NCBI RefSeq assembly: GCF_028021195.1 | Contig: NZ_CP115668.1 | Location: 2,232,001-2,296,000 of the forward strand | DNA from: Cutibacterium equinum | GTDB taxonomy: Bacteria; Actinomycetota; Actinomycetes; Propionibacteriales; Propionibacteriaceae | DNA: 64,000 bases | Direction: 5' to 3' | In this document: positions 16,332 to 63,116 of the stretch, piece after piece | How the letters are laid out: each line of letters starts with the position of its first letter | Position numbering within the stretch: the first letter of the stretch is position 1 | The notes under the pieces: generated by a model | Databases searched by the model: none | The model's input: only the letters and a program-made list of their open reading frames with translations | Told to the model about the DNA's origin: nothing | Program-made: the position numbers and the translations under genes

Positions 16332-16333
16332 GC

Positions 16334-44321: not shown

Positions 44322-44524
44322 TCACTACAGCCACCATCGCAACCTGAAGGGTGATTCCTAGGCAGCTTGCAGGCCTCGGCACACCTAATATCACAGCGAG
44401 CGAAAGGCCCGACCTACCGGCATCCTCAGCAACGTTTCAGCAGCGCCACTCGCTCGGTGCAGACGAGCAGTGAAGCACCCCGATGGGCCTCGTCAGCCAG
44501 ATGAGTAGTAGCATAGGCTTGTCT

Positions 44525-44615
44525 ACGTTTTCGGGCGAAACCTGGTGTGAATCCAGGGCTGGCCAGCAACCGTGAGTGGGTACGCCCACAAGCCGGAAGC
44601 CCAGACTGCAGGCGA
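44525..44615 (+). promoter_or_regulatory. Cobalamin riboswitch 1 (upstream of the import operon)
   Basis: The conserved AdoCbl-aptamer words appear in order: CCTGGTGTGAATCCAGGGCT, GGCCAGCAACCGTGAGTGGG and AAGCCGGAAGCCC, followed by AGACTGCAGG. The consensus is GGTGNGAATCC ... GC-AACCGTG ... GCCGGAAG. Downstream, CTTGGGCCG (44627-44635) pairs with CGGCCCAAG (44655-44663) as an expression-platform hairpin ahead of the first gene at 44789. It should lower expression of the eleven-gene operon when cobalamin is plentiful. Confidence 0.88.
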
Positions 44616-44788
44616 CGGTAGTGCTCCTTGGGCCGGGCGCTCCGTCCATCTTTGCGGCCCAAGCGTGATGGGCCAAAACCCAACACCCGCGGCGAGGCGC
44701 CATCGTTTTGGTGGGGCCACGAGTTGTGCGTTTGCGACACACCAAAGATTTGCACCCCGCGTGACGACGTTGAAGAAGGCAAAGAGAC

Positions 44789-46204
44789 ATGCGAAACGTG
44801 TTTGTGCGGTTGCTGACGGCATTGCTGCTTGCGGTTGGCTCGCCTGTGCTGATGTCCGTCCCCGCTCATGCAGACGACGAAGGCCCCTACTCGGTGCGAT
44901 GGTGCAAGTACAACGAAGGCCTGACCGTGGTGATGGATTACAAGGCGATCCCCTACCGCGACCTGCTGCCCAAGGACTGGCCAGGCGGGCACGGCCGCAA
45001 GGCGAAGTATCTGCAGGCCTGGTGCTTGCGTGACCTCAGCCGGATCTCGGACAACGGCCCCTACAAGGCTTACGAAATCGAGAAACGTGCCGTCATGGCA
45101 GTTGACATCCCGGCGGACAAGGAAATTTACAACAATGTGACCACCTGGATCTACGAGGACAACCCAGACTTCAAGCAAAGTTGGTACTGGGGTGTGGGAG
45201 ACGAGAACCAGTGGTGGTCATGGAAGACAGAATTGGACCCCAACCGCCCGAAATTGAGCGGCGATCCGTCCAATCTGGACCACAACATCAACCTGTTCGT
45301 ATTCGTCAAAATCCGCGACGACACCGGTTTTAGCGACGACAAGATAGTCCCATTCGAAGGCCCACAGTTTGAGCCCGGCGGCGGGGACGGCCCAGGCGGC
45401 GGGGACGGCCCCGGTCGCGGCGACGGCAACGGGCCGGGTGCTGGAGACGGCAACGGCAACGGCCCGGGCGCCGGAAACGGCGACGAAAACAGCAACGGCG
45501 GCAGCACCGGTGGTGAGGACAGTCCAGGTAACACCTCTGGCGGCGAGGTCCCCAACCCCAGCGACAAACCTGGCGACGAGGACAAGCCTGGCGAGCACAC
45601 TGGCGGCGATGTCCCTGACCCCGGCGAGAACCCGCCGACGGTGCCGCCGTCGAAGAAACCCACCGTGCAACCGACGGTGCCACCAACCAGCAAACCCACG
45701 GTGCCGCCGTCGAAGAAACCCACCGTCCCACCGACGGTGCCACCGTCCAAGAAACCCACCGTCCCACCGACGGTGCCACCAACCAAGAAACCCACCGTCC
45801 CACCCACGGTGCCACCAACCCAGCAACCGACGGCTCCGACTCCCCTGCCTACCCAAAGCCAGCAGCCGGAGCCCTCGCGATCGCCTGAGCAGCCTCAGGC
45901 CTCGCACACGCCCGAGCCGTCGAGTACACCGGCACAGCCGACGCCATCTGAATCACCCGAGCCCTCCTCCCCGAGCAAGCCCGAGTCGACGTCGAGTAAC
46001 TCTGCGGCGGCCATCCCCAGTCCTCCGGCCACCCCGCAGGTGACACCGTCGGCAGTGTTTGGTGACGAGCGGCCCACGTCGGCAGGTGACGAATTGAGCG
46101 ATGACCAGGCCCAGTCGCAGTTGGCAGCCTTGATTGGCTCGGTGATTTTGATCACAGCATGCGCCGGCGGCTGGATTTGGATGAGCAGGAGGCAGCGTGG
46201 CTAG
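44789..46204 (+). CDS. Membrane-anchored surface protein with Pro/Thr stalk, first gene of the cobalamin operon
   Basis: A 471-aa exported protein. The signal peptide is residues 1-28 (LTALLLAVGSPVLMSVPAHA). A globular domain of about 160 residues follows, starting RWCKYNEGLTVVMDYKAIPY, and its opening resembles secreted partners of ECF transporters in actinobacteria. A Gly/Asp/Asn linker comes next, then a long stalk of PTVPPSKKP-type repeats, a Ser/Pro region and one C-terminal helix (LIGSVILITACAGGWIWMSR) with a basic tail. There is no LPXTG motif, so the protein is held by the membrane and the stalk spans the wall. A role as corrinoid receptor is inferred from the riboswitch and the ECF genes behind it. 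It overlaps the next gene by 8 nt. Confidence 0.75.
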   Translation: MRNVFVRLLTALLLAVGSPVLMSVPAHADDEGPYSVRWCKYNEGLTVVMDYKAIPYRDLLPKDWPGGHGRKAKYLQAWCLRDLSRISDNGPYKAYEIEKRAVMAVDIPADKEIYNNVTTWIYEDNPDFKQSWYWGVGDENQWWSWKTELDPNRPKLSGDPSNLDHNINLFVFVKIRDDTGFSDDKIVPFEGPQFEPGGGDGPGGGDGPGRGDGNGPGAGDGNGNGPGAGNGDENSNGGSTGGEDSPGNTSGGEVPNPSDKPGDEDKPGEHTGGDVPDPGENPPTVPPSKKPTVQPTVPPTSKPTVPPSKKPTVPPTVPPSKKPTVPPTVPPTKKPTVPPTVPPTQQPTAPTPLPTQSQQPEPSRSPEQPQASHTPEPSSTPAQPTPSESPEPSSPSKPESTSSNSAAAIPSPPATPQVTPSAVFGDERPTSAGDELSDDQAQSQLAALIGSVILITACAGGWIWMSRRQRG

Positions 46205-47126
46205 GGGCTACCTATCCCGTATTTCGGCAGCGTTGTTGATAATGCTGATCTGGGCGCCAGCAACCCCCGCCCACGCGAACGTGTCAAACGAGACCGCGGC
46301 CTTGTGCTACAACACGTCGGTCACCTGCTCGGTCTCCACCAAGCGTGACGTCTACGAAAACTCCGTCATCAAAGTGATCGTCACCGGCAAGGAGAACACC
46401 TCCGCCCGATTGCGGATGTTCCAAATCAAGGTGGTCGACGGCGTGGCGGACGGGCTGACCCCGCTGGGCAAACCGTTCACCGTCAACTTGGACGCACAAG
46501 GCCGAGGCGAAGGCTGGATGCCCGGCCCGTCCCCGTCACCGGGCGGAGGGTGGGTGTTGGTCAGCCTTGAGGACACCACATGGACGGGCAACCCGGCCGA
46601 CATCATCGGGTCGGCCGCCCATTTCGGCTCCAAGAATCCGACTGTTCTGGGCGACGGTTTCGGCACGGACAAGCCGGTCGGCCAGCCCATCCAGATGGAT
46701 TTCATCAATTCGTTGAGCTCAATGGAATATGTCGTCGAATACCAGGCCGACGACAAGGCGTGGTATCAGGTTGGCTCCGGCGAGCCCACCACGGCAAAGA
46801 AGGCCACTGAGGTCACCTCCATCGAATACCAAGTACCGCAAGGGCTGGCACCCCGCGACTACATGTTCAGGCTGCGAAACATCACTGCGGACTCCTCCAC
46901 CCCCTACTACTGGCATGTGCGCCCGTCCAAGAACGCGCAGCCCCAGCCCCGCAAGAAACCCCTCGACTTCAACTCGGTAGGCAGCAACTTTGACACCGTG
47001 CAAGTGACGACCCACCACCCAGTCAAGCCGGCGCTGATTGGCCTCGGTTCAGCCCTGGCCGCCAGTTGCGCCCTGGCGGCTGTTACCCCGGTGATAAAAG
47101 GCCGTCGCAGATCGGGGGACCACTGA
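46197..47126 (+). CDS. Second membrane-anchored surface protein of the cobalamin operon
   Basis: A 309-aa exported protein with a signal peptide (ISAALLIMLIWAPATPAHA) and a beta-rich extracellular domain of about 230 residues. It contains paired cysteines (LCYNTSVTCSVSTKRDVYEN) and segments such as KVIVTGKENTSARLRMFQIK, and ends with a C-terminal helix (ALIGLGSALAASCALAAVTP) and basic tail RRRSGDH. No family motif is clear to me. The GTG start overlaps the first gene and its TGA shares a base with the next ATG. It probably forms a complex with the first surface protein at the membrane next to the ECF transporter. Confidence 0.65.
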   Translation: MARGYLSRISAALLIMLIWAPATPAHANVSNETAALCYNTSVTCSVSTKRDVYENSVIKVIVTGKENTSARLRMFQIKVVDGVADGLTPLGKPFTVNLDAQGRGEGWMPGPSPSPGGGWVLVSLEDTTWTGNPADIIGSAAHFGSKNPTVLGDGFGTDKPVGQPIQMDFINSLSSMEYVVEYQADDKAWYQVGSGEPTTAKKATEVTSIEYQVPQGLAPRDYMFRLRNITADSSTPYYWHVRPSKNAQPQPRKKPLDFNSVGSNFDTVQVTTHHPVKPALIGLGSALAASCALAAVTPVIKGRRRSGDH

Positions 47127-48025
47127 TGCGACACCTGTCCGGCGTGGTCTGGCTAGGCTTCTTCATCCAGGTCTGCCTGACCCTGATCTCACGCCCCGAC
47201 ACCTGGGTGACCATTTTCGTCATTGTCGGCACGATGATCTTGTCGATGTTGCGCTCCGGGCCACGCTTCAGCTTCACCGGGCAGGCCATGGGGTTGGGGT
47301 TGGTGCTCGCCCTGCTCACCTTCACAGCCAGACTGGTGGCCAGCGGGCAAGCCAACGGCAAAGCGGTCCTGGTGATACCGCAGTTCTCACTTGGCTCGGG
47401 GGCTGAGTTCGGCGGCGTGATCACAGCCAAGACCATGTTGGCCACAGCCACCTCGAGCGCGGTGGTTTTCGCCATCTTCGTCATGGCCGGACTGTTGGTG
47501 CAGGCCTGCCCGTCGGGGGAATACGCCGACATCGTCGACTGGCTGTTCGGTAGCGCCGCCGAGTTGTGTTACCCCTGGCTGTTCGCTGCCGACGCCTACG
47601 CCCAGTCGCGCAACGCCAACCCGCCCGCTGGCGCCCAACTACGTGCCCAATGGCAAGGTGCCAACCCTGGACAAACCAGCCGGCGCACGATGAACCTGGC
47701 GATAGTGGTGTTCTGGCTCATCGTCGTCCTGTCGGTGCTCTACTTCTCATTCTTCGGCGGGCTGCGTATCCACGGGATGTCAACGCCCATCACCGGTGGT
47801 CAGATGCTGGCGGTACTGGCCTTGCTCTGGCTGACGGTGCGCTCCTTCCGCCGTCCGAGCAGGGTCCGGGTGGACGTGCTGGACGCAATTGTGCTGTGGC
47901 TGGCGCTGCTACCACTGGGTTTACCGGACAACCTGCTGTTCGTCGGGGAGATCTTGGCTTTCAGCGCTGTCGCCCTGGGCCAGATCGCCTTCGCATCCGG
48001 GAAGGTTCGACGTGCTGAAATTTGA
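47126..48025 (+). CDS. ECF transporter transmembrane (T) subunit
   Basis: A 299-aa membrane protein with about seven hydrophobic helices. The first pair lies at 5-45 and 50-75, and the last group, from about 245, ends FVGEILAFSAVALGQIAFAS. A long cytoplasmic segment around residues 165-200 (AADAYAQSRNANPPAGAQLR) stands where EcfT proteins carry the two Ala-Arg-Gly coupling helices; here those triplets are not clearly kept. That fits the degenerate ATPase encoded next. The ATG at 47126 uses the last base of the preceding stop; a longer frame upstream is rejected. Confidence 0.7.
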   Translation: MRHLSGVVWLGFFIQVCLTLISRPDTWVTIFVIVGTMILSMLRSGPRFSFTGQAMGLGLVLALLTFTARLVASGQANGKAVLVIPQFSLGSGAEFGGVITAKTMLATATSSAVVFAIFVMAGLLVQACPSGEYADIVDWLFGSAAELCYPWLFAADAYAQSRNANPPAGAQLRAQWQGANPGQTSRRTMNLAIVVFWLIVVLSVLYFSFFGGLRIHGMSTPITGGQMLAVLALLWLTVRSFRRPSRVRVDVLDAIVLWLALLPLGLPDNLLFVGEILAFSAVALGQIAFASGKVRRAEI

Positions 48026-49358
48026 CAATCTTGGCCTGTGGATGCCCCACTCAGGGCTGGTTTTCCACGGTGTCAACGCTGAGGTCGAGCCCGGCGAAAT
48101 CCTGGTCATTGCGGGCCGCAACGGCTCGGGAGCCTCCATGCTGCTCAACGCCCTGCTGGCCCAGTTGCCGCCCGGCTCCAGACGGCAGGGACGGATCAGC
48201 ATCGGCGGCCAAGACGTCACCTCCAGCCACCCGGGGGAATACGCCAGCCAGATTTCGGCCTTCTCCAGCCAGTGGGTCAACCCGTCGGCACGCATTGGAG
48301 AGGTCTGCAGGCGAGCGGACCCGAGAATCGTTGCCGAGTTGGACGCCAACGCCAACCCCGAGGTGCGGGTGCGCCAGGCCACCGACTCGCAGCGGGTGAG
48401 GGCGAACCTGGCCGTCGCACTCAGCCACCCAGGGCCAGTGCTGCTGCTGGACCAACCCCTGACCCTGCTGGAATCACGTTGGCATGCCACGGTGGCCGAC
48501 CTGATCGCCGAACAGGCCAGCGCCGGGAAGGCCGTGGTCGTCAGCGACCACACCCTCACCTGGCTGTTGGAGCGGGCAAGCAAGGTGCTGGAACTGGGGC
48601 CGACCCCTCGCGTCTGCTCCCCCGACGACTGGTGGCCCTCCACCATTGCGCCAACCAGCGCCCAGATCTTGGCTCGGCACCTCGGGGTGAAGCTGAGCGA
48701 ACTCGGCGGGGCCACGAAAGGCGTCGATTTCGGCCCGCGTCCGCATCTGCCTCACAGCACCAATCTTGAAAGCCTTGACCTGGACTGCGGCCAGTTGCTT
48801 CGCCCGATGGACGCCCCGTCGGTGATCTACAGCCCTTCGGCTGAGAGTCTGGCCGAGTTTCAGGCTGAGCTGACCGAGGCCACCCAGGTGACGGCCCTGG
48901 CCAAACCTGACCGTGCGACCTCCGTCGCCAAGGCCTGCCGCAAGGCTGAGAAAGCCAGTGGCTTGGCCAAATACGAGGCACTGAACCACATTGTCAAAGC
49001 TGGTTTGAACGCCAATATGCCGTTCTCCAAGCTGTCCGGGGGCCACCAGCGGCTGCTCATCCGCGAGCTCGCCCTACTCACCGGGACACTGATCGTCGAA
49101 CCCGACCACATGATCAGCCCCAATCTGTGGCTCGCACCGACCAACCTGGTTGGCAACCAGTCCCCCATCATCCTGACCACCAACATCGAGACGGCCACCC
49201 GGTTTCGGCAGGTGGCAGTGGTCAACCAGGGCAAGATCATCGCCCAGGGCAGCCCAAGCGCCACCTTGGCCCACATCGACGAGCGCCCCTACTTCTTCCA
49301 TCTGACATCGCGGATCAGTTGGCAGGACATCTCTACAGATTGGCGACCCCATGGTTAG
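48012..49358 (+). CDS. Fused double ABC ATPase (ECF A1-A2) with degenerate nucleotide-binding motifs
   Basis: A 448-aa protein with two ABC ATPase halves. In half 1 the P-loop reads GRNGSGAS (35-42), so the catalytic Walker A Lys is Ala41. The signature is replaced by TDSQRVRANLAVAL, and Walker B is VLLLDQP with Gln in place of Glu. In half 2 the P-loop position reads VIYSPSAESLAEF with no Gly-Lys, but the signature LSGGHQRLLIRELALL (about 339) is intact and Walker B reads TLIVEPDH. At most one composite site could still bind nucleotide. The GTG at 48012 overlaps the T-subunit gene by 14 nt. It is probably structural or regulatory rather than a normal motor. Confidence 0.8.
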   Translation: MLKFDNLGLWMPHSGLVFHGVNAEVEPGEILVIAGRNGSGASMLLNALLAQLPPGSRRQGRISIGGQDVTSSHPGEYASQISAFSSQWVNPSARIGEVCRRADPRIVAELDANANPEVRVRQATDSQRVRANLAVALSHPGPVLLLDQPLTLLESRWHATVADLIAEQASAGKAVVVSDHTLTWLLERASKVLELGPTPRVCSPDDWWPSTIAPTSAQILARHLGVKLSELGGATKGVDFGPRPHLPHSTNLESLDLDCGQLLRPMDAPSVIYSPSAESLAEFQAELTEATQVTALAKPDRATSVAKACRKAEKASGLAKYEALNHIVKAGLNANMPFSKLSGGHQRLLIRELALLTGTLIVEPDHMISPNLWLAPTNLVGNQSPIILTTNIETATRFRQVAVVNQGKIIAQGSPSATLAHIDERPYFFHLTSRISWQDISTDWRPHG

Positions 49359-50226
49359 ACGATTCGGATTGACCTCGGGCTGGCGAACCTGGTCGAGCCT
49401 GACGGTGTGCGTCGGCATCTTGACGGTGTTCCTGTTCGCCCCGATCCTGTGGCCCAGGCACGCCGCGACCGCAGAACAATACGCTGACGAGAGCCTGCTG
49501 GTGCTGTTACTGGCCGCGGTGTGGCTGCTGATCACCTGGTGTTGTCTATGGCTCGACTCCTACCGCGACAGCTCCGCACTCAGCTGGGCAGTCCTCATGG
49601 TGGTGGCGAATACCCTCATCAGGCAGCTGTTGAATGCTGGCGGGGGGTTCGAGTTCAACTACGCCTTGCCGATGCTTGCGGGCCTCGCGGGCGGAGCCCC
49701 CGTCGGTTTTCTCGTGGGAGGGACGAGTGCGCTGCTGTCCCATCTGACCCTCAACCTAGTCACCACACCGATGCCCGGCCAGATCTTGGCATGGGGGCTG
49801 TTCGGGCTGCTCGGCGGTCTCCTGCACAAGCTGCCCTCGGTGTGGGCGTGGTTGGTGGCCTGCCCCGTCTCGGTGGCCGGTGGCGTTGTGGCCGGTGTGC
49901 TGTTGAACCTGACAGGCTGGCCCACCCAGGAGCCGGAGGGCTCATACTTCTTCTTCCCGATGCTGGATTCCTGGACGAACCTGGTACGGCTGTGGGGCTA
50001 TTCGGCCTCCACGTCGTTCGGCTGGGATCTGGCCCGGGGGATCTGCTCGGGCATCCTCATCGCCGTCGTGGGCCTGCCTGCCCTGATCAAACTGAGAGCG
50101 GTGTGGGGGTTCCAGCCCCAACTCACCGAATTTGATCTTCCCGCTGAATCGCCGGACGAAAAACTGAAACTTCACGAAAAGCAGCTCGATTTTCGCGAGC
50201 ATTGGAAAGGAAAACCAGGTGAATAA
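49351..50226 (+). CDS. ECF transporter substrate-binding (S) subunit, probably for cobalamin
   Basis: A 291-aa membrane protein with six or more helices. The central pattern YALPMLAGLAGGAPVGFLVG, GTSALLSHLTLNL and MPGQILAWGLFGLLGGLL is the S-component signature seen in cobalamin-type (CbrT-like) and related ECF S subunits. Compared with a compact S subunit of about 200 aa it has an additional N-terminal helix pair and a charged C-terminal tail. Cobalamin specificity is inferred from the upstream riboswitch and the locus, not from binding residues. It overlaps both neighbours by 8 nt. Confidence 0.75.
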   Translation: MVRRFGLTSGWRTWSSLTVCVGILTVFLFAPILWPRHAATAEQYADESLLVLLLAAVWLLITWCCLWLDSYRDSSALSWAVLMVVANTLIRQLLNAGGGFEFNYALPMLAGLAGGAPVGFLVGGTSALLSHLTLNLVTTPMPGQILAWGLFGLLGGLLHKLPSVWAWLVACPVSVAGGVVAGVLLNLTGWPTQEPEGSYFFFPMLDSWTNLVRLWGYSASTSFGWDLARGICSGILIAVVGLPALIKLRAVWGFQPQLTEFDLPAESPDEKLKLHEKQLDFREHWKGKPGE

Positions 50227-51208
50227 CGAGATCACTGCCAAGGATTTTGACAGGGCTCGAGAGATCACGAGATCAATCGAGGCTGCCGTGTCGTCGCGGT
50301 TGGTTGGCCAGCATCGCCTGCTGCGTAGCCTGCTGGTCGCGCTGATCAGCGACGGCCACATCTTGCTGGAATCCGTGCCCGGCCTGGCGAAAACCCTGGC
50401 AGCATCGACCCTGGCCAAATCGGTGTCAGCCAGCTACGGACGCGTCCAGTGCACCCCCGACCTGCTGCCGGCCGACATCATCGGCTCTCAGATCTACAAC
50501 GCCAAGACTGGTGCGTTCAGCACCGAGTTGGGGCCAGTGCACGTCAACTTCTTACTGCTCGACGAGCTGAATCGCTCCAGCGCGAAAACCCAGTCAGCGA
50601 TGCTGGAGGCGATGCAGGAGCGCCAAACCTCGATCGGCAACGAAACCTACCCGCTGCCCAAACCCTTCCTGGTGATGGCCACCCAGAACCCGATCGAGGA
50701 GGAGGGCACCTACGTACTGCCCTTCGCCCAGATGGATCGGTTCATGCTCAAGGAGGTGCTGACCTACCCCAGCCCCGACGAGGAACTGACGATTCTCGAC
50801 CGGGTGGTGGATCAGGTGTTCGAGCAGCCGGTACCGGCTTCGGGGGTCACCTTGGACGACATCCTGGTGCTGCAGCAGGCGGTGAAACATGTCACGATCA
50901 GCCCCGAGTTGAAGAAATACATCATCGACATCGTCGGCGTCACCCGCGACCCGGGCTATTTCCTGCAGGCCGAGAAGGCCAAATACCTCGAACTGGGGGC
51001 TTCTCCTCGCGCCGCCATCGCCTTCTTGAACGCGGCCCGGGCGTCGGCCTTGTTGGACGGACGCGACCACGTGCTGCCCGAGGACATCGTCGACTTCCGC
51101 TATTCCGTCCTGCGTCACCGACTGATCCTGACCTTCGAAGCCACCGCCGAGCAGGTCAAGCACGAGGATCTGATCGACGCCATCTTCGACGTCATCCCCA
51201 CCCCGTAA
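50219..51208 (+). CDS. MoxR-family AAA+ ATPase
   Basis: A 329-aa cytosolic AAA+ chaperone-type ATPase. Motifs are complete: Walker A ESVPGLAKT (51-59), Walker B FLLLDELNRSSAKTQSAML, sensor ATQNPIEEEGTY, and FAQMDRFM as arginine-finger region. MoxR proteins work with vWA-domain partners, as in methanol dehydrogenase maturation and in the related chelatases. Here DUF58 and two vWA genes follow directly. The GTG start overlaps the ECF S gene, so transporter and MoxR are translated together. It may power or remodel the transporter or the surface receptors. Confidence 0.93.
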   Translation: MNNEITAKDFDRAREITRSIEAAVSSRLVGQHRLLRSLLVALISDGHILLESVPGLAKTLAASTLAKSVSASYGRVQCTPDLLPADIIGSQIYNAKTGAFSTELGPVHVNFLLLDELNRSSAKTQSAMLEAMQERQTSIGNETYPLPKPFLVMATQNPIEEEGTYVLPFAQMDRFMLKEVLTYPSPDEELTILDRVVDQVFEQPVPASGVTLDDILVLQQAVKHVTISPELKKYIIDIVGVTRDPGYFLQAEKAKYLELGASPRAAIAFLNAARASALLDGRDHVLPEDIVDFRYSVLRHRLILTFEATAEQVKHEDLIDAIFDVIPTP

Positions 51209-51210
51209 TC

Positions 51211-52086
51211 ATGGCGCACCTGACCAGAATCAAGACATCGCTGACCATCCCGGCCAGGCGTAAGGTGGCCGGGCTGTTGGACGGCCAATACGCCTCGACG
51301 GTGGCCGGACGCAGCCTCGATTATTCCGACCTGCGCGAATATGTCGTCGGCGATGACGTCAAGGACATCGACTGGAAGGCCTCCGCCAGGCTCAACTCAG
51401 TGCTGGTGAAGCGCTACATCGCCGACCGCAAACACACTGTCCAACTGGTGGTAGCCGGCGGTGCCGAGATGTCGGCAAGCTCTCAAACCCCTGGCGAGGC
51501 CAAGAGTTCGGTGGCGATCATGGCTGCCGGACTGTTGGGTTTCCTGGCCACCCAGCATTCCGACTATGTCGGCCTGAGCCTGGGTGTGGGCACTGATGTG
51601 ACCTGGGCCAGGCCGTCGACCAAGGAAACCGAATTGGAGCGGATGCTGAACCAGATCGAGGCAGGATGCCAGCCCGGGCAGCCTCAGGCGGTGCTGGACG
51701 AACTGTTCGGCCAAATCATCTCGGGACTGAAGAAACGCACCATCATGATCTTGGTGATGTGCCTGGAGAGGTTCAGCGCCGCCCAGGTCAGCCTGCTGGG
51801 CCGGTTGTCGATCCAGCATGAGATCTTCGCGGTGGTGGTGGGAGACCTCGGTTTGGATGAGGCCCGAGCCTCCGGCCAGTCCGTGATGGGTGCCTCGGAC
51901 GCGTTGCAGGTGCCGTCATTCCTGCTGGCCGATACCCAGTTGGCCAGCCAATTACAACAATCGGATGCCGCCGTGTGGGCGCAGATGCAGTCAACTTTCA
52001 CCAAGCTGGGCATCCCCAGCCAGTTGATCGGCTCCACCGACCAGGTGATCAGCGCCGTCAACTCCCTGTTGGCAAGGGCAGGGTGA
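51211..52086 (+). CDS. DUF58 domain protein
   Basis: A 291-aa protein. The DUF58 core is plain: GRSLDYSDLREYVVGDDVKD, then IDWKASARLNSVLVKRYI, followed by a vWA-like fold. Proteins of this family always accompany MoxR ATPases and are thought to be adaptors. The ATG at 51211 is 2 nt after the MoxR stop; the longer frame upstream lies within moxR and is rejected. Confidence 0.9.
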   Translation: MAHLTRIKTSLTIPARRKVAGLLDGQYASTVAGRSLDYSDLREYVVGDDVKDIDWKASARLNSVLVKRYIADRKHTVQLVVAGGAEMSASSQTPGEAKSSVAIMAAGLLGFLATQHSDYVGLSLGVGTDVTWARPSTKETELERMLNQIEAGCQPGQPQAVLDELFGQIISGLKKRTIMILVMCLERFSAAQVSLLGRLSIQHEIFAVVVGDLGLDEARASGQSVMGASDALQVPSFLLADTQLASQLQQSDAAVWAQMQSTFTKLGIPSQLIGSTDQVISAVNSLLARAG

Positions 52087-52088
52087 CC

Positions 52089-52532
52089 ATGGGGTTGGAG
52101 ACGAAGATTTTCCCGGCATACCCGGCGTGGACAGGATGGCTGTGGATCGGCATCGGTTTGTTCTGCCTGGCGGGCCTGACGGTTGCGGCTCTGGTGTGGA
52201 CCGCTCGACGAAAGACTGTCAGCACCCCCTCGCTCAAGCCCCGATATCTGGAGCGTATCGACCGTCTGGTCGAGCAGCATCAGCAAGGCACGGTGACAGA
52301 CGAGGAGTTGATCTCGCGGGTGGGACTGGTGGCAAGACAGTTCATCGGTGTGATGACTGGACTGAACCCCGAGACGTCCACCCTCAGCCAGAATGACCTG
52401 GCGGTGCTCACCCACCCCGAAATCGCGAAGATGGTGGAGTTGCACCGGCTGAGTTACACCCGGTTCGGCTCCACCCCGGTGGACCCCATGCAGTTCACCA
52501 AGCAGGCGAAGGAGCTGATCCAATGCTGGTGA
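52089..52532 (+). CDS. Single-pass membrane protein of the MoxR-vWA cluster
   Basis: A 147-aa protein with one N-terminal helix (WLWIGIGLFCLAGLTVAALV). A cytoplasmic helical domain follows (RYLERIDRLVEQHQQGTVTD, LISRVGLVARQFIGVMTGLN). Position and length match the DUF4381-like small proteins found between DUF58 and vWA genes in Bat-type operons. It overlaps the following vWA gene by 10 nt. Confidence 0.7.
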   Translation: MGLETKIFPAYPAWTGWLWIGIGLFCLAGLTVAALVWTARRKTVSTPSLKPRYLERIDRLVEQHQQGTVTDEELISRVGLVARQFIGVMTGLNPETSTLSQNDLAVLTHPEIAKMVELHRLSYTRFGSTPVDPMQFTKQAKELIQCW

Positions 52533-53482
52533 AATCACTTTGGCTGGGCATTGTGCTGCTCGTCCTGGCAGTCGCGGCAGCCGTGGCTGGCTGGTACTGG
52601 CGTCGACAGCGCGCCGAGTTGACGCTTGGGCGGGTGAGCCAACTGCGAGCCCTGCCCCGATTCCAACAGCTGATTCGCGACCACACTCGCCGCGGGCTGG
52701 CCGGTTTCGTGGCCCTCACCACTGCCCTGCTCGGATGCGCCTGGCTACTGGCTCGTCCAGGCTGGGTGACCAGCGACTCCAAACAGTGGTCGGGCCGTGA
52801 CGTCATCTTGTGTGTGGACGTTTCCGGGTCCATGTCTGAGGTGGACGCATACGTCGTGGAGAGCTTGCAGGTGTTGGCCAAGAACCTCACCGAGGAGCGG
52901 ATCGGTTTTGTTGCCTTCGATTCAGCGGCAGCCACCTATTTTCCGCTCACCAACGACTACGAATTCGTCGAGAACGCCCTGGCCGACGCCCTGACGTCCT
53001 TCCGCAACAAGGAACGCACCCCCGTTTGGGAGGCAACCCAGGTGGGCGGGCGCGGCTCGTCCCTCATCGGGGACGGCCTGGCCAGTTGCGTGCAGCGCTT
53101 CGACAAGGTGGACGAGGATCGCCCGCGCACCATCGTGTTGGCGACTGACAACAAGCTGGCCGGCACCCCGATCTTTTCGCTGTCCGAGGCCAACCGGCTG
53201 GCGGCCAAGATTCATGCCAACATTTTCGCGGTGGCGCCGTTCGGAACTGGCAATGTGGAGAAGCGCGAGCTGGAGGCGGAGTTCGGCAAGGACAACGTGA
53301 TGGTTCTCGAACCCAAAGCCCGGGCAGTGCCGCAGCGAATCGCCAAACAGATCCGGCGCTCCCAGGCCAAGCACATCTTGGCTCTGCCCGGCGCTCGATC
53401 CTTCGACCAGCCGGCGATCGGCCTGGGGGCGGCCGTGGTCGGGGTATTTGCCCTGGTGGCGTTGAGGAGACGGGATGATTAA
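52523..53482 (+). CDS. vWA-domain membrane protein 1 (BatA-like)
   Basis: A 319-aa protein with two N-terminal helices (about 5-24 and 60-78), a von Willebrand A domain and a C-terminal helix (AIGLGAAVVGVFALVALRRR). The MIDAS motif DVSGSMSE (Asp99) is complete, with later metal ligands in GSSLIGDGLASC and LATDNKLAG. BatA-like proteins are extracytoplasmic partners of MoxR systems. It overlaps both neighbours by a few nt. Confidence 0.9.
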   Translation: MLVKSLWLGIVLLVLAVAAAVAGWYWRRQRAELTLGRVSQLRALPRFQQLIRDHTRRGLAGFVALTTALLGCAWLLARPGWVTSDSKQWSGRDVILCVDVSGSMSEVDAYVVESLQVLAKNLTEERIGFVAFDSAAATYFPLTNDYEFVENALADALTSFRNKERTPVWEATQVGGRGSSLIGDGLASCVQRFDKVDEDRPRTIVLATDNKLAGTPIFSLSEANRLAAKIHANIFAVAPFGTGNVEKRELEAEFGKDNVMVLEPKARAVPQRIAKQIRRSQAKHILALPGARSFDQPAIGLGAAVVGVFALVALRRRDD

Positions 53483-54422
53483 CTTTCTGCCCAACTGGTG
53501 GTTGACGGTGCCGTCCGCAGCAGTGCTGGCCTATTGCACGTGGCGCTGGGCATCGAGCCGGGCGCGCAGTTGGCGTTGGGGACGCATGGTGGTGATCGGG
53601 CTGTGCCTGACCATGATCGGATTGCGTCCGATCGCAGGTCAGGTGATGACCACGGAATACCAGTCAGGTGCCGACGTGGTGATGTTGATTGACAAGACCA
53701 CCTCGATGGCTGCCGAGGATTTCGACGGCAACCATCCACGCATGGACGCGGTGCGTAAGGACGCGTTGAATCTGGTTCAGCAACTGAATGGTGCCCGGTT
53801 CGCGGTCGTCGTGTTCGACAACAACGCCAGGGTGGTGTTGCCGTTCACCACGGACGCCTCCGCGGTGGCTTCCCTGCTGGAGACGATGGACTGGCGTCGA
53901 GCCGAGGACGGCAACGGTTCAGACATTGGGATCGCCAGCAGCGAGGCCCAGAAATTGCTGGAGAATTCAAAGAAGCGGCGTCCGGACGGATATCGTCAGC
54001 TGATCTATTTCGGCGATGGCGAACAAACCAAGAAATCGGAACCCACTTCGTTCCAGAATCTTCGCGGGCTGATCAGCAACGGGCTATTCATTTCATATGG
54101 GACATCGACAGGCGGAAGGATGAAGATATCGCCGTTGAGTTCGCAATATGTTAAATACAAGGACAAGGATGCCATCTCCAAAGCCAACCCGGCAGCGGTG
54201 AAAAACCTCGCCGTCCAAGCCGGGGGCATCTTTACTGAGCGCACCTCAAACAACCAGCCGCTGACCGTCGACACCAGTGACGTCAAGACAATCGAGGTCA
54301 CCAGAAAAGATCCTCGCGGCTTCGAGTTGTACCCATTCTTCGCTGGTCCACTAGGTCTTTTGCTGATCTTTGAGTTGTTTGGCCAAGCCCGAGCGTTCCG
54401 CCTGACAAGGAGCTGGAAATGA
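53475..54422 (+). CDS. vWA-domain membrane protein 2 (BatB-like)
   Basis: A 315-aa protein with N-terminal helices around 10-25 and 37-52, a vWA domain, and a C-terminal helix (YPFFAGPLGLLLIFELFGQA). Its MIDAS reads LIDKTTSMAAEDF (Asp73), with Thr in the first Ser position. A second acidic-Thr element is in EDGNGSDIGIASSEA. Overlaps with the genes on both sides show that all MoxR-vWA subunits are made together. Confidence 0.88.
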   Translation: MINFLPNWWLTVPSAAVLAYCTWRWASSRARSWRWGRMVVIGLCLTMIGLRPIAGQVMTTEYQSGADVVMLIDKTTSMAAEDFDGNHPRMDAVRKDALNLVQQLNGARFAVVVFDNNARVVLPFTTDASAVASLLETMDWRRAEDGNGSDIGIASSEAQKLLENSKKRRPDGYRQLIYFGDGEQTKKSEPTSFQNLRGLISNGLFISYGTSTGGRMKISPLSSQYVKYKDKDAISKANPAAVKNLAVQAGGIFTERTSNNQPLTVDTSDVKTIEVTRKDPRGFELYPFFAGPLGLLLIFELFGQARAFRLTRSWK

Positions 54423-55153
54423 ACTTGGAACCCCCGTCACGAAGGCCGACGACCCGGCGAGTCCTGCGATATATTGCAGCCGGGCTGACAGCTCTAATAA
54501 TTCTGCTCGCAATCAAATTCATTGCCCTGGTCGCTTTCGACCATCTTGGCCGAAAGAGCATGGACGAAAACAAATTTGAGCAAGCCAAGACCTATTTCAG
54601 CCTGAATCTGATTGCGAATTTCTTCGACCCGTGGCAGCCACATTTCAATACAGGGGTGGCGCAGTTCAAGCTACACGATTTTCAGGCTGCAGAGAAGCAA
54701 TTTCGGCTGGCCCTCGACCAGGCGCCCGATGACAAAGTGTGCATGGTGAGCTTGAATCTGGCCGTCACCTTGGAGACTCGGGGCGACGGACTGAAAGCCA
54801 TGGGCGACCTGCAAGGCGCACAGCAGCTCTACGGTGAGGCCAGCATGATCGCGACAAAAACCGAGTGCAGGTCGAATTCGGGCTCGTCGAACTCCAGCTC
54901 CTCCGACTCGAAGTCCAACTCCGAGCCAAACCAGAAAGACATCAAGGAGCGGATCGAGAAGAAGAAGCAAGAGGTGGCCCAGGACACCCAGGACATGTCC
55001 GACCAGCCGATGGAGGATACCCCGCAGACTGAGGACAAAAAATTGCAGGATTTGAAAGACACCAACTCCGACGCTGAGCAGGCCAAACAGTCGCATCAGG
55101 ACAAGAACGGTGCTTCCGGGCCGGGCAAGCAAGAGCAGGAGCCACAATGGTGA
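54419..55153 (+). CDS. TPR membrane protein (BatE-like)
   Basis: A 244-aa protein with one N-terminal helix (YIAAGLTALIILLAIKFIAL) and two or three tetratricopeptide repeats (about 55-130; NTGVAQFKLHDFQAAEKQFR, VSLNLAVTLETRGDGLKAMG). The C-terminal half is highly charged and Ser/Asn/Lys/Gln-rich, presumably flexible. TPR proteins close many Bat operons. It overlaps the next gene by 7 nt. Confidence 0.82.
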   Translation: MNLEPPSRRPTTRRVLRYIAAGLTALIILLAIKFIALVAFDHLGRKSMDENKFEQAKTYFSLNLIANFFDPWQPHFNTGVAQFKLHDFQAAEKQFRLALDQAPDDKVCMVSLNLAVTLETRGDGLKAMGDLQGAQQLYGEASMIATKTECRSNSGSSNSSSSDSKSNSEPNQKDIKERIEKKKQEVAQDTQDMSDQPMEDTPQTEDKKLQDLKDTNSDAEQAKQSHQDKNGASGPGKQEQEPQW

Positions 55154-56466: not shown

Positions 56467-56653
56467 CCCCATCGACGCACCTAACATTGGTGAACAACTC
56501 ACGCATGAGCTGCCCCGAGCATTGTTGTTCCTCTGGGTCACAACGGCGCCGGACAAGAACATATAGTCAAGATTGACCACGCCCGGGCAAGGATGAGCCT
56601 ATCGATGGAGAAGAAACCTCTCTGGAGCCCTTCGTAGGACTCAATGGTATGGG

Positions 56654-56692
56654 TGGGCCCGCCGATTTCCGAGGGGGAGATCGGCGGGCCCA
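56654..56692. terminator. Terminator between convergent cobalamin-locus genes
   Basis: TGGGCCCGCCGAT (56654-56666) pairs perfectly with ATCGGCGGGCCCA (56680-56692). It lies between the toroid-protein gene and the convergent 844-aa protein gene and can stop both. The 180 nt before it hold no gene. Confidence 0.85.
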
Positions 56693-56719
56693 TGTCCAAT
56701 GCGACTCAGTGCGCCAACA

Positions 56720-59254: not shown

Positions 59255-59339
59255 AATTCGCCTTCCGTCCACCCCGCCGGGATCGCACAATGGACGTCAC
59301 AAGCGACACCGCTCGCAGCACCCGACGAGTCTTTTTCTA

Positions 59340-59432
59340 GGAACACGGGTGAAGGTCCGACTCCTGGCGGCGGTGACGCCATCAGACACGGTTGCGGGTC
59401 AGCGCGAGATTCACACTCGCTTCAACACTCGA
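59340..59432 (-). promoter_or_regulatory. Cobalamin riboswitch 3 (upstream of the 844-aa protein)
   Basis: On the minus strand the aptamer words are GCGAGTGTGAATCTCGCGCT, then GACCCGCAACCGTG and GCCAGGAGTCGGACCTTCAC. These match the AdoCbl consensus, including the B12-box-like AGGAGTCGGACC. It ends about 90 nt before the GTG start at 59254. The CTAGAAAAAG that follows and a GC-rich segment may form the expression platform. Confidence 0.88.
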
Positions 59433-59465
59433 TGAACGGCACGCTACCACCGCCGACCCCGGTGT

Positions 59466-59543
59466 GTCGTCGCAGCGATCGTGGCGTTCATGATGGCAGC
59501 CTCACTAGGAATGTCGAGGCGCAACCACGATGATCGAAAGTGA
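59466..59543 (+). pseudogene. Relic of a second toroid-protein gene (3' end only)
   Basis: The plus strand reads VAAIVAFMMAASLGMSRRNH and then DDRK-stop. This is almost the same as the end of the toroid protein at 56.4 kb (AAIMAFMVAASLHMSRRNHDDRK), and the identity continues at DNA level past the stop (CGAAAGTGACC). No upstream coding part remains. It indicates a former duplication within the locus, placed between riboswitches 3 and 2. Confidence 0.85.
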
Positions 59544-59585
59544 CCACACCAACACACGCTGACGTACACTCTCAGCGGATGTATA

Positions 59586-59670
59586 CGGGGCGAAACTCGG
59601 TGTGATTCCGAGACTGGCCAGCAACCGTGATCGCTCGAGCGTAAGTCGGGAGCCCCCACTATCTGGGACA
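59586..59670 (+). promoter_or_regulatory. Cobalamin riboswitch 2 (upstream of the LRR surface protein)
   Basis: The aptamer words are GGGGCGAAACTCGGTGTGAT, TCCGAGACTGGCCAGCAACC and then GTAAGTCGGGAGCCCCCACT. It is the same architecture as riboswitch 1, and the central ACTGGCCAGCAACCGTGA is nearly shared with it. A hairpin, GCCTGGGG (59676-59683) with CCCCAGGC (59701-59708), follows and is the probable expression platform before the start at 59763. Confidence 0.88.
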
Positions 59671-59675
59671 GGTAT

Positions 59676-59708
59676 GCCTGGGGCCGCAACCTCCTCCCGC
59701 CCCCAGGC
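59676..59708 (+). terminator. Expression-platform hairpin of riboswitch 2
   Basis: GCCTGGGG pairs with CCCCAGGC across a 17-nt loop containing the CCTCC anti-ribosome-binding word. It could terminate transcription or mask translation when cobalamin is bound. Confidence 0.55.
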
Positions 59709-59762
59709 CCTACTCAGGTGCCTGGCCAGGCAGGTCAGCCACCTCGTTGAAAGGAACTGACC

Positions 59763-62700
59763 TTGAGAGTGTTCAAATCTGCGGCGATAGCGGGGGCCGT
59801 GACCCTGACTGTCGCCTCCTTCGCACCCTTCACGTCGCCAGGTACGGCATTTGCAGCCGACGACCTGAAGGTTGAAGTAAGCCAGAACGCGGTCAACATG
59901 GGCCAGCAGGCCACCCTGAACGCCGATCTGGAAGGGACCGCTGCCACACTGGTGGACGGCTACCAGTGGTACGCCGACGGCAAGCCCTTGGCTGGCGAGA
60001 CGTCTCAGAAATTGGTGATCGACAAGCTGACCCGCACCGAAGCACTGAAGAAGTACTCTGTCGAGGTCAACGTCAAGGGCCAGGGAAAGCAGAAGAGTGC
60101 CGAAGCTGCACCGAATGCACAGCTATATTTCCCGGACGCCAATATGGCGAAATGTATTTTCGAGAACGCAAAATTCCCGAAGTCTTTCGCCGAGGCTGAA
60201 AAATTCAGGCCCGATGGGTGGACCGGTGTCAACTGCAAGGACATGGATATCAAGAGCATCGAAGGCATCCAGTACATGAATGCGCCGAAGCTCGGCGGGT
60301 TCATGTTTGCCGGCAATCATATCACCGATATCAGCCCACTCAAAGGCATGAATTTGCAAAGCAAGTTGAACCTTGATGAGCAGGTTCTCGACGATATCGT
60401 GGTCAAGGATTATGCTGCGGTTCCGCTACCCAAGCTCATCTCTTCCGACGACTCGGATGTTCCCTTCACCACCAAAGCCAACGCACATGTTTCCGAAACC
60501 TACACCCCGGTGAACAATGACGGCGACACCCTGACGTGGTATCTCTTCGTCGAGAACGCCGAAGAGGACACCATCATTGAATTCGGCGGCACCTTGAAGG
60601 TCGTCAGCCAGATCCCGGCTGGCTTGCCGAAGTTCAGCTTGAGCAAGGCACAGGCCGGTTTGGATGAAACCGTTGAGGTGCAGTTGGACGGCTTCAAGCC
60701 CAACACCACCGTCCAGTTGAAGATGGACGGCAAGCCTTGGACCACCATCACCGTGGACGACCTCGGCAAGAAGACTGAGAATGTGACGGTGCCCGGCGAC
60801 ATCACGGTGGGCAAACACACCGTGACGACTGAGGGCCAGTTGAAGGACACCACCCAGAAGCTACCCGCCCGCAATCTGGAGGTCACCAACCCGTACGTCA
60901 CCGATGACGTGATGCCGGACAAGAATCTTCAGGCATGCTTCCGTAAGCATTTGAAGCTGGGCAAGAACGACAAGATGCGAATCGACGCGGTCGCAAACAT
61001 GACCGCCGGCGGCGAGAAATTCGATAAGTTGGATTGCTCCAACATGGGAATCAAGAACCTGAAGGGGCTGGAACTCTACAAGGCCACCGTCAAGGATCAC
61101 GGATCCAATGCCGCGTTGGCAGTTGACTACAATTTCTCAGGAAACGACATCGAAACCCTAGAAGGCCTACCACATCTGAATCCAGATAGTTCGCATGGTA
61201 TTTTAGATTTGTCGGACAATAACATCACAGACCTGGGTGACACCTCCAAGTTGGCCAAGCAAAATCGTTTCAAGACGATAAAGCTAGAGGGAAATCACAT
61301 CTGGGACTTCAACAAGGTTGAATACGTTTTCCACGGCGATGGTTCCGGTCAGGATATTCTGGCTGGACACCAGACCGTCGTCGTCGATCAGCCCTACCGA
61401 GTGGGTGGCACATACGCATTTCCTGTGACAGACGGCCGCTACCCGATGACCCTTACGGGGAAAACCAGCGATTCCACGTACTCGATTGACAATAGCCATA
61501 GAGAGCTGACATTCCATGGCCCGGGCTGCTACCCTCTGACCTTCCGCAACGTTCCCAAGCCAAACACTGGCGACATCGAATACCTCACTGCGGGCAATAT
61601 CGATCTGGTCGCGCAGGCCCTACCTAGTTTCACGGCCGCACCGGCGTCCTCGCTGTCGGTCACTGACAAGCTCAGCGCCACCGTCAAGGATTTCGACTCG
61701 GGCGAGAAGGTCACGGTGAAACTGGTTCCGGCCTCCGGCGACCCAATCGAACTCGGGTCTGTGAATGCCAGCGCCGCTGACCCCGAGGCTGACCCCTGCG
61801 ACACTCCGTCCGCACTGGGCGGTTCGGCAGAGTTCACCAACCTCACCATCCCACTTGACACCCCGGCCGGTAAGTACAAGCTCGTCGCCAGCGGACAGGA
61901 CAGCGAGCTGAGCGTTCAGGCTGATCTGACGGTCACCCGTCCGGCCCTCACTCTGACCGTCGAGCCCTCCCCTGCCAAGGCGGGCCAAACCATCAAGGTC
62001 GGCGCCGCGAACCTGTTCCCGCGTGAGCGGGCGACCTTCACCCTGGCCGCCAACGGCGAAGACGCATCCGTCACTGTGGACACCGACGTGAACGCAGATG
62101 GCACTGCCACTGCCAATCTGGCCGTGCCTGCCGACGCCAAGCCCGGGCAGTACACCGTGGCAGTTAAGGGCGAGACCAGCCGTCTAGAAGCACACCAGGA
62201 TGTTCTGATGTTGAGCGCGTCCGCGCCACAATTGACCGCATCGGCCCAGACCGTGCGCGCCGGGGACAAGACAACCCTGACCGTCGATCACATGCTTCCG
62301 GCCGAGAACGTCCTGTTCTCCCTCGTGAAGGATGACAAGTCCGAACCGATTGAGTTGGGCAAGGTGGCAGCCGGGCAGGACGGCACCACCAAGTTTGAGG
62401 CCACCATGCCCGCCGATCTGGCGGCCGGACAATACCGTGCCATTGCCGCAGGTGAGACCAGCGAGCTTCAGTCGGACACCGAGATCATCGTGTTGAGCGC
62501 TACCCCAGCAAGCTTGAAGGTGGACCCGACTTCAGCCGCACCTGGCGAGCAGGTGAAGCTGACCGGCGCGAACTTCCTGCCCGGTGAGAACGTCGACGTC
62601 AACCTGCTGGGAGCGGACGGCAGCCTGGTCAAGGCGGTGAGCAGCGCGACGGCAGGTCCGGACGGCAGCGTGTCACCGACCGTCACCCTCCCGGCAGACC

Positions 62701-63116
62701 TCACCCCTGGCACGTACACCATTCAGGCGTCCGGCAAACGCAGCGAGCAGATTGCCGAGACCGCGTTTGAGGTTGTCAAGGCCCAGGATGAGGCTGGTGA
62801 CCAGCCTGGCGACGAATCCGGAAATGAGCCCGGTACCCAGCCCGAGCCCAGCACTCAACCCAGCACCGGCACCCTGCCCAGCGCCAAGCCCAGCACCGGT
62901 ACTCAACCCAGCACCAGTGCCCAGCCCGGCACCGAGACCAAGCCCAGTGCCGAGGCCAAGCCCAGCACCCAGCCCAGCACCCCGAAGAAGCTGCCCAACA
63001 CCGGCGCTTCCAACAGTTCAATGCCTCTGGCAGGAGTGTTGGCAGGGATGGCCTTGTTCGCTGCTGTAGGCGCAGCAGCCGGGCGCGCTCGCCACAACCG
63101 ACGCTCATCCCGATAG
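59763..63116 (+). CDS. LPXTG-anchored surface protein with leucine-rich repeats and Ig-like repeats
   Basis: A 1,117-aa wall protein. The signal peptide is about 1-31. An Ig-like domain follows, then two short leucine-rich-repeat blocks: FAGNHITDISPLKGMNLQSK near 185, and LDCSNMGIKNLKGLELYKAT with LDLSDNNITDLGDTSKLAKQ between about 420 and 500, internalin-like. At least four related beta-sandwich repeats of about 90 residues come next (AGQTIKVGAANLFPRERATF, PGEQVKLTGANFLPGENVDV). After a Pro/Ser/Thr-rich wall-spanning region comes a complete sorting signal: LPNTG, a hydrophobic stretch (PLAGVLAGMALFAAVGAAAG) and RARHNRRSSR. The start is TTG 59763 with AAAGGA upstream; GTG 59769 is possible. 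The riboswitch upstream ties it to cobalamin; direct corrinoid binding is inference. Confidence 0.85.
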   Translation: MRVFKSAAIAGAVTLTVASFAPFTSPGTAFAADDLKVEVSQNAVNMGQQATLNADLEGTAATLVDGYQWYADGKPLAGETSQKLVIDKLTRTEALKKYSVEVNVKGQGKQKSAEAAPNAQLYFPDANMAKCIFENAKFPKSFAEAEKFRPDGWTGVNCKDMDIKSIEGIQYMNAPKLGGFMFAGNHITDISPLKGMNLQSKLNLDEQVLDDIVVKDYAAVPLPKLISSDDSDVPFTTKANAHVSETYTPVNNDGDTLTWYLFVENAEEDTIIEFGGTLKVVSQIPAGLPKFSLSKAQAGLDETVEVQLDGFKPNTTVQLKMDGKPWTTITVDDLGKKTENVTVPGDITVGKHTVTTEGQLKDTTQKLPARNLEVTNPYVTDDVMPDKNLQACFRKHLKLGKNDKMRIDAVANMTAGGEKFDKLDCSNMGIKNLKGLELYKATVKDHGSNAALAVDYNFSGNDIETLEGLPHLNPDSSHGILDLSDNNITDLGDTSKLAKQNRFKTIKLEGNHIWDFNKVEYVFHGDGSGQDILAGHQTVVVDQPYRVGGTYAFPVTDGRYPMTLTGKTSDSTYSIDNSHRELTFHGPGCYPLTFRNVPKPNTGDIEYLTAGNIDLVAQALPSFTAAPASSLSVTDKLSATVKDFDSGEKVTVKLVPASGDPIELGSVNASAADPEADPCDTPSALGGSAEFTNLTIPLDTPAGKYKLVASGQDSELSVQADLTVTRPALTLTVEPSPAKAGQTIKVGAANLFPRERATFTLAANGEDASVTVDTDVNADGTATANLAVPADAKPGQYTVAVKGETSRLEAHQDVLMLSASAPQLTASAQTVRAGDKTTLTVDHMLPAENVLFSLVKDDKSEPIELGKVAAGQDGTTKFEATMPADLAAGQYRAIAAGETSELQSDTEIIVLSATPASLKVDPTSAAPGEQVKLTGANFLPGENVDVNLLGADGSLVKAVSSATAGPDGSVSPTVTLPADLTPGTYTIQASGKRSEQIAETAFEVVKAQDEAGDQPGDESGNEPGTQPEPSTQPSTGTLPSAKPSTGTQPSTSAQPGTETKPSAEAKPSTQPSTPKKLPNTGASNSSMPLAGVLAGMALFAAVGAAAGRARHNRRSSR

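Follow-up and report, generated by a model that had tools for sequence, protein, structure and literature searches.

A cobalamin aptamer-led locus of Cutibacterium equinum that joins an ECF-like transporter core without intact ATP sites to a MoxR-vWA cassette

What might an energy-coupling factor (ECF)-like transporter core do when its own ATPase has lost the catalytic residues and the next genes of the operon encode a MoxR ATPase and its partners? The question is raised by a locus at 44525..63116 of the window analyzed here, a 64,000-nt stretch of DNA that covers positions 2232001-2296000 of the single-contig 2.51 Mb genome of Cutibacterium equinum. In this locus, genes for ECF-like T, A, and S proteins run directly into a cassette for MoxR and von Willebrand factor A (vWA) proteins, genes for exported proteins stand on either side, and a cobalamin aptamer precedes each transcription unit. 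We favor, with a probability of about 0.5, a reading in which this would be a cobalamin-repressed locus for corrinoid acquisition, where EcfA would serve as a structural, nonhydrolyzing subunit and MoxR, with its vWA, DUF58, and TPR partners, would do the mechanical work.

The core of the locus is a set of 12 plus-strand genes (44789-56466) that overlap their neighbors by 1 to 14 bases, apart from a single 2-base gap. They encode, in order, two exported membrane-anchored proteins, EcfT, EcfA, EcfS, MoxR, a DUF58 protein, a small transmembrane (TM) protein, two vWA proteins, a TPR protein, and an exported toroid-related protein. The initial annotation had placed the ECF T, A, and S genes in one overlapping operon with those for MoxR, DUF58, two vWA proteins, and TPR, and gene spacing and family matches agree on this arrangement. 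It had also spoken of an ECF channel, and there the sequence of EcfA tells a different story. The EcfA-like protein (P0004; 48012..49358, plus strand) is a double ABC protein (ABC_tran, 2.8e-16) whose catalytic residues are lost; the degenerate Walker A motif of its first nucleotide-binding domain (NBD1; 48114..48137, plus strand, from the EcfA motif table) reads GRNGSGAS, with alanine in place of lysine. The sequence does not support an ECF channel with the usual power source, because the window EcfA has no intact ATP site.

The same loss was found wherever the operon has a complete EcfA. The 15 MoxR-type proteins compared (13 aligned with a motif table, and those of loci L157 and L159 read from printed sequence) have all lost the NBD1 Walker A Lys, the LSGGQ signature and catalytic Glu of NBD1, and the entire NBD2 Walker A, and the NBD2 switch His is also gone; NBD1 Walker A reads, for example, GRSGSGGA in Tessaracoccus antarcticus. 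All of these motifs are retained in 9/9 complete canonical relatives (8 in the same alignment, plus L164), such that both ABC domains have intact Walker A and B motifs in none of the 15 MoxR-type proteins, compared with all 9 canonical ones. Left out of the first set were the EcfA of L058/L099 (one genome, incomplete gene) and that of L155 (broken frame; NBD1 GVSGSGATS, without Lys), and out of the second were two canonical EcfA proteins cut at the end of the stretch (L157 and L159), which are intact as far as they go. A sequencing slip in the window can be dismissed as the cause, since all 15 complete genes share the loss. Substitution rates were compared as pairwise NG86 ratios of nonsynonymous to synonymous change (dN/dS), which are rough and come from pairs that partly share genomes and are not all independent. 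They were 0.15-0.21 for the catalytically dead EcfA in 5/5 pairs, 0.18-0.37 for EcfT (3 pairs), 0.14-0.42 for EcfS (4 pairs), and 0.03-0.11 for MoxR (4 pairs). Judged by these ratios, the dead EcfA is evolving under constraint and is not drifting.

The membrane partner of EcfA is altered as well. The EcfT-like protein (47126..48025, plus strand) has no Pfam match and was recognized by profile and by alignment with clear relatives. The motifs (A/G)RRLRG and (E/D)(S/A)RG(Y/F), which we take to be the coupling-helix motifs of EcfT, occur in 7/7 canonical proteins and in 0/10 of the MoxR type. The EcfS-like protein (P0005; 49351..50226, plus strand), recognized likewise by profile and alignment with relatives, matches ECF-ribofla_trS at just E 0.21; it can be aligned with canonical EcfS proteins, and its distant relative in L164 matches PF12822 at 1.2e-9. 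One might suppose that the S and T proteins use the active EcfA of a canonical cluster, with the dead EcfA in a regulatory role and the MoxR cassette merely cotranscribed. A second, more distant EcfS match is indeed present in 9/9 genomes with a MoxR-type EcfS (G000, G001, G002, G004-G008, and G034), the one read being L069, but the absence of the canonical coupling motifs from every MoxR-type EcfT argues against such sharing, and we regard it as improbable.

The MoxR gene (50219..51208; AAA_3, 2.2e-56, with alignment and tree), like the rest of its cassette on the plus strand, encodes an AAA+ ATPase with intact Walker A and B motifs, as do all 14 MoxR genes aligned (10 ECF-linked and 4 standalone). 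With the EcfA ATP sites lost, MoxR is left as the operon's sole NTPase whose motifs are intact. It is followed by the DUF58 protein (51211..52086; DUF58, 3e-21), the small membrane protein TM150 (52083..52532), which profile and conserved position mark as a regular member of the MoxR cassette, and a BatA-like vWA protein (52523..53482; VWA_2, 3.6e-9; VWA_BatA_Lepto, 1.6e-6, below cutoff), hydrophobic at both ends by eye. The cassette ends with a BatB-like vWA protein (53475..54422; VWA_2, 4.7e-14; VWA_BatB_Lepto, 1.3e-16, below cutoff) and a TPR protein with a hydrophobic N-terminal stretch (54419..55153; TPR_2, 8.2e-9).

A search with the alignment of the first vWA protein led to 78 named loci. 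The series MoxR-DUF58-TM-vWA-vWA-TPR is complete and in order in 66 of the 78. Once the ECF-linked loci and those at contig edges are set aside, 66 loci are left, and 54 of these have the complete cassette without ECF genes. EcfS stands immediately before MoxR in 10/78 loci, and the full EcfT-EcfA-EcfS series does so in 9/78, all in Propionibacteriaceae. The hosts are Acidipropionibacterium jensenii, Cutibacterium porci, C. namnetense, C. avidum, C. modestum, a Cutibacterium metagenome-assembled genome, two Arachnia, Tessaracoccus antarcticus, and T. massiliensis. In A. jensenii DSM 20535, a dairy species, one ECF-MoxR operon was found (L075). A further search with the same protein at E 1e-20 found it in 17/147 genomes of the family, at 19 places, and yielded 10 further loci, three of them identical to loci already named and counted once (L153 = L075, L156 = L119, and L160 = L076). 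L157 and L159 are complete ECF-MoxR operons with aptamers; L154 lacks ECF genes and has the cassette adjoining an aptamer-led beta-domain gene; L155 and L158 have decayed but retain an aptamer; and L161 and L162 have the cassette alone, without an aptamer. ECF genes directly ahead of moxR-DUF58-vWA, as initially annotated, recur across Propionibacteriaceae genomes (the 10 loci plus L157 and L159). Downstream of the ECF-MoxR operon of L080, L081, L157, and L159 come toroid and/or beta-domain genes and an EcfT-EcfA pair whose ATP sites are intact as far as read, and an aptamer leads each unit.

Nor is the locus unique in its own genome. A second operon of the same three-aptamer design lies at 1823-1839 kb (L018 and L019), where 7/9 ECF and cassette genes were found by blastp at 27-58% identity over the aligned parts; its EcfT and TM150 were matched by profile alone, and the toroid gene of the window has no blastp counterpart there. 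In a maximum-likelihood tree of 82 MoxR proteins, with that of L098 left out, a single branch sets off all 17 ECF-linked proteins as one group within Propionibacteriaceae (98/93, one change, 98% of 200 bootstrap trees). The window MoxR has a long end branch and joins A. jensenii and G034, a relative of A. jensenii (100/99). We read the tree as suggesting one joining event and a later transfer of the window copy.

An aptamer model, R1, found a cobalamin aptamer at 8 of the 10 ECF-MoxR loci (not L075 or L087), at one of two Propionibacteriaceae loci at contig edges (L098 and not L076), and at none of the 66 others. The genomes of L077, L078, L082, and L099 had also supplied training aptamers, and those of L079, L080, L081, L098, and L119 had not; at these latter five, the aptamers were confirmed by the second model, R2, described below. 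The idea that the MoxR cassette per se is a cobalamin system was rejected on these counts and on the standalone Propionibacteriaceae cassettes L161 and L162, which likewise have no aptamer. In five of the non-ECF loci (L092, L104, L109, L112, and L129), the neighbors look by eye like housekeeping genes.

In the window, aptamer 1 (44516..44622, plus strand) is the leader of the 12-gene operon. Aptamers 2 (59331..59444, minus strand) and 3 (59571..59675, plus strand) lie back to back, the former leading an Ig/beta-domain gene on the minus strand (56720-59254/59290) and the latter a gene for an LPNTG surface protein (59763-63116). Nowhere in the window does a match to the Rfam cobalamin models reach the gathering score, and the three sites are no exception. 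At a relaxed threshold, RF01482 (cutoff, 50 bits) matches 44513-44649 on the plus strand with 29.9 bits (E 1.4e-3, 551 bases) and 59346-59431 on the minus strand with 30.9 bits (E 9.8e-4, 651 bases), and RF00174 matches 59592-59654 on the plus strand with 25.6 bits (E 1.7e-4, 651 bases). The covariance model R2 was built from 17 aptamers of other loci, 5 of these 17 from elsewhere in this genome and none from the window. In a scan of the 64 kb it recovered aptamer 3 at E 7.3e-18, aptamer 1 at 2.1e-16, and aptamer 2 at 6.2e-15, with the next match at E 0.051. That next match (37564-37650, minus strand) is aptamer-like and probably due to chance. Helix P4 covaries, with both sides changed at the outermost pair in 10/20 sequences of the full 20-sequence alignment. 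Strong R2 matches together with Rfam scores below cutoff indicate that the three sites belong to a compact variant that the Rfam cutoffs miss, and on this sequence evidence we take them to be real cobalamin riboswitch aptamers, with a core that has P4 and the B12 box. The initial annotation thus stands in having an aptamer ahead of every transcription unit (3/3 sites), although the check that it proposed with the Rfam models left all three below cutoff; an origin as chance words is ruled out by the model made without window sequences.

Elsewhere in the genome, RF00174 has 22 matches at E values of up to 10, of which 12 are above cutoff, and the genes behind these riboswitches resemble cbi/cob, cobalt transport, mutAB, nrd, and BtuFCD-type genes (names by eye and from recall). 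In a distant actinobacterium, two divergently oriented cobalamin aptamers (L164:1574-2056) are of different types, the one classical (91.6 bits) and the other compact.

Five exported proteins had been annotated, and signal peptides, judged by eye, are present in all five. In the operon these are P0001 (44789..46204), with an N-terminal beta-like domain identified by profile comparison, a Pro/Thr-rich stalk, and a C-terminal TM helix; the protein labeled 'SecB' (46197..47126; FNIII-A_GpJ, E 0.0025, below cutoff), which is conserved before EcfT and also has a C-terminal TM helix; and the alpha/alpha-toroid-related P0012 (55147..56466), without a Pfam match and assigned by profile-profile comparison. 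On the minus strand, P0013 (56720..59254) has two divergent beta domains and Ig I-set domains (I-set, 5e-20), and on the plus strand the fifth gene (59763..63116) encodes an LRR/MG2-like surface protein (MG2, 9e-11; LRR_4, 1.4e-3, below cutoff). Of the five, this last protein alone carries an LPXTG sorting signal that is complete (LPNTG; Gram_pos_anchor, 2.9e-4). The description of the exported proteins as wall-bound receptors consequently holds for one of the five; P0001, 'SecB', and P0012 end in one hydrophobic helix with a basic tail (by eye), and P0013 stops at a bare LPKSGV without a hydrophobic tail. A frameshift at this end was rejected, since the three frames beyond the stop show no such tail. 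In 6/6 beta-domain or toroid proteins without a TM end, the protein ends right at LPx(S/T)GV and no hydrophobic sorting tail follows, at 56720-56740, L019:50 and 4934, L077:12758 and 17451, and L078:12680 (just 49 bases beyond the end being seen at L019:50).

These proteins were compared with a beta-domain profile (A5) and a toroid profile (A6), and E values of iterated profiles that had absorbed window rows were not used as proof. The profile of the P0001 group aligns with A5 (hhalign probability, 93.6; E 2.1e-7; 64 columns), and P0012 with two relatives (L075 and L055) aligns with A6 (probability, 98; E 1.7e-13); at E 0.01, A5 alone does not find P0001 and A6 alone does not find P0012. P0013 is matched in part by a beta profile made without window rows (E 8.7e-8 and 7.3e-4). 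A6 also matches squalene-hopene cyclase chains at 2.8e-10. Fusions of the two domains occur with the toroid first in L019, L070, and L077 and with the beta domain first in L079-L081, and in the C. equinum genome the toroid profile matches at two places and the beta profile at five, by position all in aptamer-led units.

Both families recur under cobalamin aptamers beside catalytically intact ECF clusters, in L070, L071, L072, L080, L081, and L164. In L070, L071, and L072, the order is aptamer, such exported genes, and then ECF genes. The distant L164 reads aptamer-beta-EcfT-EcfA(intact)-EcfS-toroid-DUF4430, with a second riboswitch on the opposite strand (RF00174, 91.6 bits). Of 148 genomes in the class, it is the only one with DUF4430 (PF14478) at E 1e-6, the gene being above the Pfam cutoff, and DUF4430 is a domain that we take to be tied to transcobalamin. 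Given this recurrence with aptamers and intact ECF genes, it is likely that the exported partners capture corrinoids, which is the role initially proposed for them. Another view would give them a part in adhesion or in the uptake of another nutrient, with cobalamin as a signal only. In Cutibacterium acnes, cobalamin riboswitches precede pseudogenes read as adhesin fragments and genes for thrombospondin type-3 repeat proteins, their role there not being known (available part of PMC9600381). However, the same exported families stand beside intact, aptamer-led ECF clusters in other genera as well as in a distant family, and a DUF4430 gene lies inside the L164 cluster, and we give this view little credence. 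In C. equinum, a toroid occurs in a 751-amino-acid riboswitch-led protein (L020), and on this account riboswitch-led genes of both C. acnes kinds may be genes for corrinoid capture. At L020:8574-15014 (approximately 1912573-1919013 of the genome), three cobalamin aptamers stand in tandem, and a toroid-bearing repeat protein recurs in pieces between them, together with small membrane proteins, in what looks like an amplified and partly decayed array.

The same clusters bear on a further alternative, in which the ECF-like proteins would form a nontransporting platform or a corrinoid sensor, MoxR-vWA would assemble or display the surface proteins when cobalamin is scarce, and uptake would fall to a BtuFCD-type or canonical ECF system. 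EcfA and EcfT have lost the features that couple ATP to transport, the genome retains an intact canonical ECF cluster (L069) and riboswitch-led clusters resembling the BtuFCD type, and MoxR/vWA pairs are known to remodel protein complexes (PMC13036017 and PMC3893208, as excerpted). Against this, the S and T genes are under constraint and their order with MoxR is fixed, and for the canonical clusters with toroid or beta-domain genes (L070, L071, L072, and L164) the stretch read contains no MoxR cassette. We consider this alternative unlikely, and prefer corrinoid acquisition with MoxR at work on the ECF-like complex.

Several observations weigh against that preference. P0001 and P0012 join their families by profile-profile comparison alone, and neither the toroid nor the beta family has a sequence match to solved transcobalamin or intrinsic factor. 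Of 19 beta domains, one is matched by DUF4430 (E 0.047), a single DUF4430 sequence gave no alignment with the beta profile, and no aptamer was found at the canonical ECF clusters L067, L068, L069 (that of C. equinum), and L073, those of L067 and L073 lying at contig ends. For EcfS itself no family match is significant, the best in Pfam being E 0.21. The NBD1 H-loop (switch) His is present in 13/13 MoxR-type EcfA proteins, so that binding of a nucleotide or a partner may remain, and the window EcfA still has the word LSGGH in NBD2. C. modestum (L058/L099) is without EcfT and most of EcfA and has kept EcfS and the cassette; T and A may be dispensable, or this locus may be decaying. The L155 and L158 loci are also broken.

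Searches of the open-license literature of PubMed Central turned up no report in which ECF genes are joined to MoxR-vWA, and none of degenerate ECF ATPases like these; the initial annotation likewise knew of no described system of this composition. The nearest systems share parts of it. ECF-CbrT, an ECF-type vitamin B12 transporter, has S, T, and ABC proteins and a B12 substrate, which would be the likely substrate here, and its ATPase subunits carry all motifs (PMC5997447, in part). In contrast, the EcfA of this locus has no intact ATP site, and the operon adds MoxR-vWA and the exported partners. NorQD and RavA-ViaA likewise pair a MoxR ATPase with a vWA partner that acts on a membrane complex, as may happen here, but they serve nitric oxide reductase and NADH:ubiquinone oxidoreductase I, whereas MoxR of this locus neighbors ECF-like subunits under a cobalamin aptamer (excerpts of PMC13036017 and PMC3893208). 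Surface capture by accessory proteins in transport loci, as we propose, is known from B12-capturing surface lipoproteins of Bacteroides (PMC6143338, in part). Those belong, unlike this locus, to a Gram-negative outer-membrane system. They are presumably the lipoproteins named BtuG, and their protein families are, as far as is known, different from those found here. Human intrinsic factor and transcobalamin consist of an alpha/alpha toroid and a DUF4430-like beta domain; in the locus and its relatives, toroid and beta domain are separate or fused exported proteins, and any likeness would be one of domain type, with no sequence match. A sequence search of PDB gave no useful match for the beta domain or for the DUF4430 protein of L164. 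In NCBIfam, the L070 toroid resembles SCO2321_fam (3.7e-9) and the L077 beta protein (17539-18174) resembles SCO2322_fam (3.6e-9), both below cutoff; these families carry no stated function. We know of no MoxR in their setting, and nothing relevant to SCO2321-2325 was found in open-license PubMed Central. The excerpt of PMC11494915, on P. freudenreichii, has nothing on MoxR or ECF.

The surroundings of the locus bear traces of movement. A gene fragment at its left edge (44109-44243) matches the minus-strand gene at 63261-63782 to its right, the repeat (44135-44266 and 63593-63724) being 80% identical over 132 nt, and it therefore looks as though the locus entered between two copies of this gene. 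Adjoining it at 34753-44250 is probably an integrative element, with a tRNA-Ser (cga) followed by integrase- and FtsK/TraB-like genes (by reading) and a G+C content of 0.562, compared with 0.647 leftward. Within the locus, the 3' end of the toroid gene (56393-56480) is repeated at 59470-59557 (88%), just before aptamer 3, as if 56481-59557, with the Ig/beta-domain gene and aptamer 2, had been inserted by duplication. Farther away, at 7831-20700, genes resemble a type I-E-like cas operon, with a gap that possibly holds a CRISPR array (by eye).

In the mechanism that we favor, low intracellular cobalamin would lead the three aptamers to permit expression, a direction that we infer from the known behavior of such aptamers. 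Outside the cell, corrinoids would be bound by the exported proteins with beta or toroid domains, which membrane helices or the wall would keep in place, and would be handed on to the EcfS/EcfT-like membrane pair. EcfA would be retained as a structural subunit without ATP hydrolysis, and MoxR, through its vWA, DUF58, and TPR partners, would do the work of opening, resetting, or assembling the membrane complex. The corrinoid as ligand, the import direction, and the action of MoxR on the ECF-like complex are presumptive parts of this scheme, the boldest being MoxR as a replacement motor. A MoxR/vWA pair that twists a linker and so enables metal insertion into a reductase (PMC13036017, as excerpted) makes it plausible that force is exerted on a membrane partner. 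A more specific version, a vitamin ABC transporter that has lost its own ATPase, has the MoxR ring as its motor via vWA, and is fed by intrinsic-factor-like toroid and beta catchers, strikes us as possible but doubtful.

If MoxR does drive the complex, an unrelated AAA+ ATPase would have taken the place of the motor in an ABC-type importer, and we know of no other transporter with an exchange of this sort. In that case, the actinobacterial MoxR-DUF58-vWA-vWA-TPR cassette would also gain a client that can be tested. It would further suggest that some of the riboswitch-led 'adhesin' genes of skin Cutibacterium serve corrinoid capture, and competition for B12 on the skin would become directly testable.

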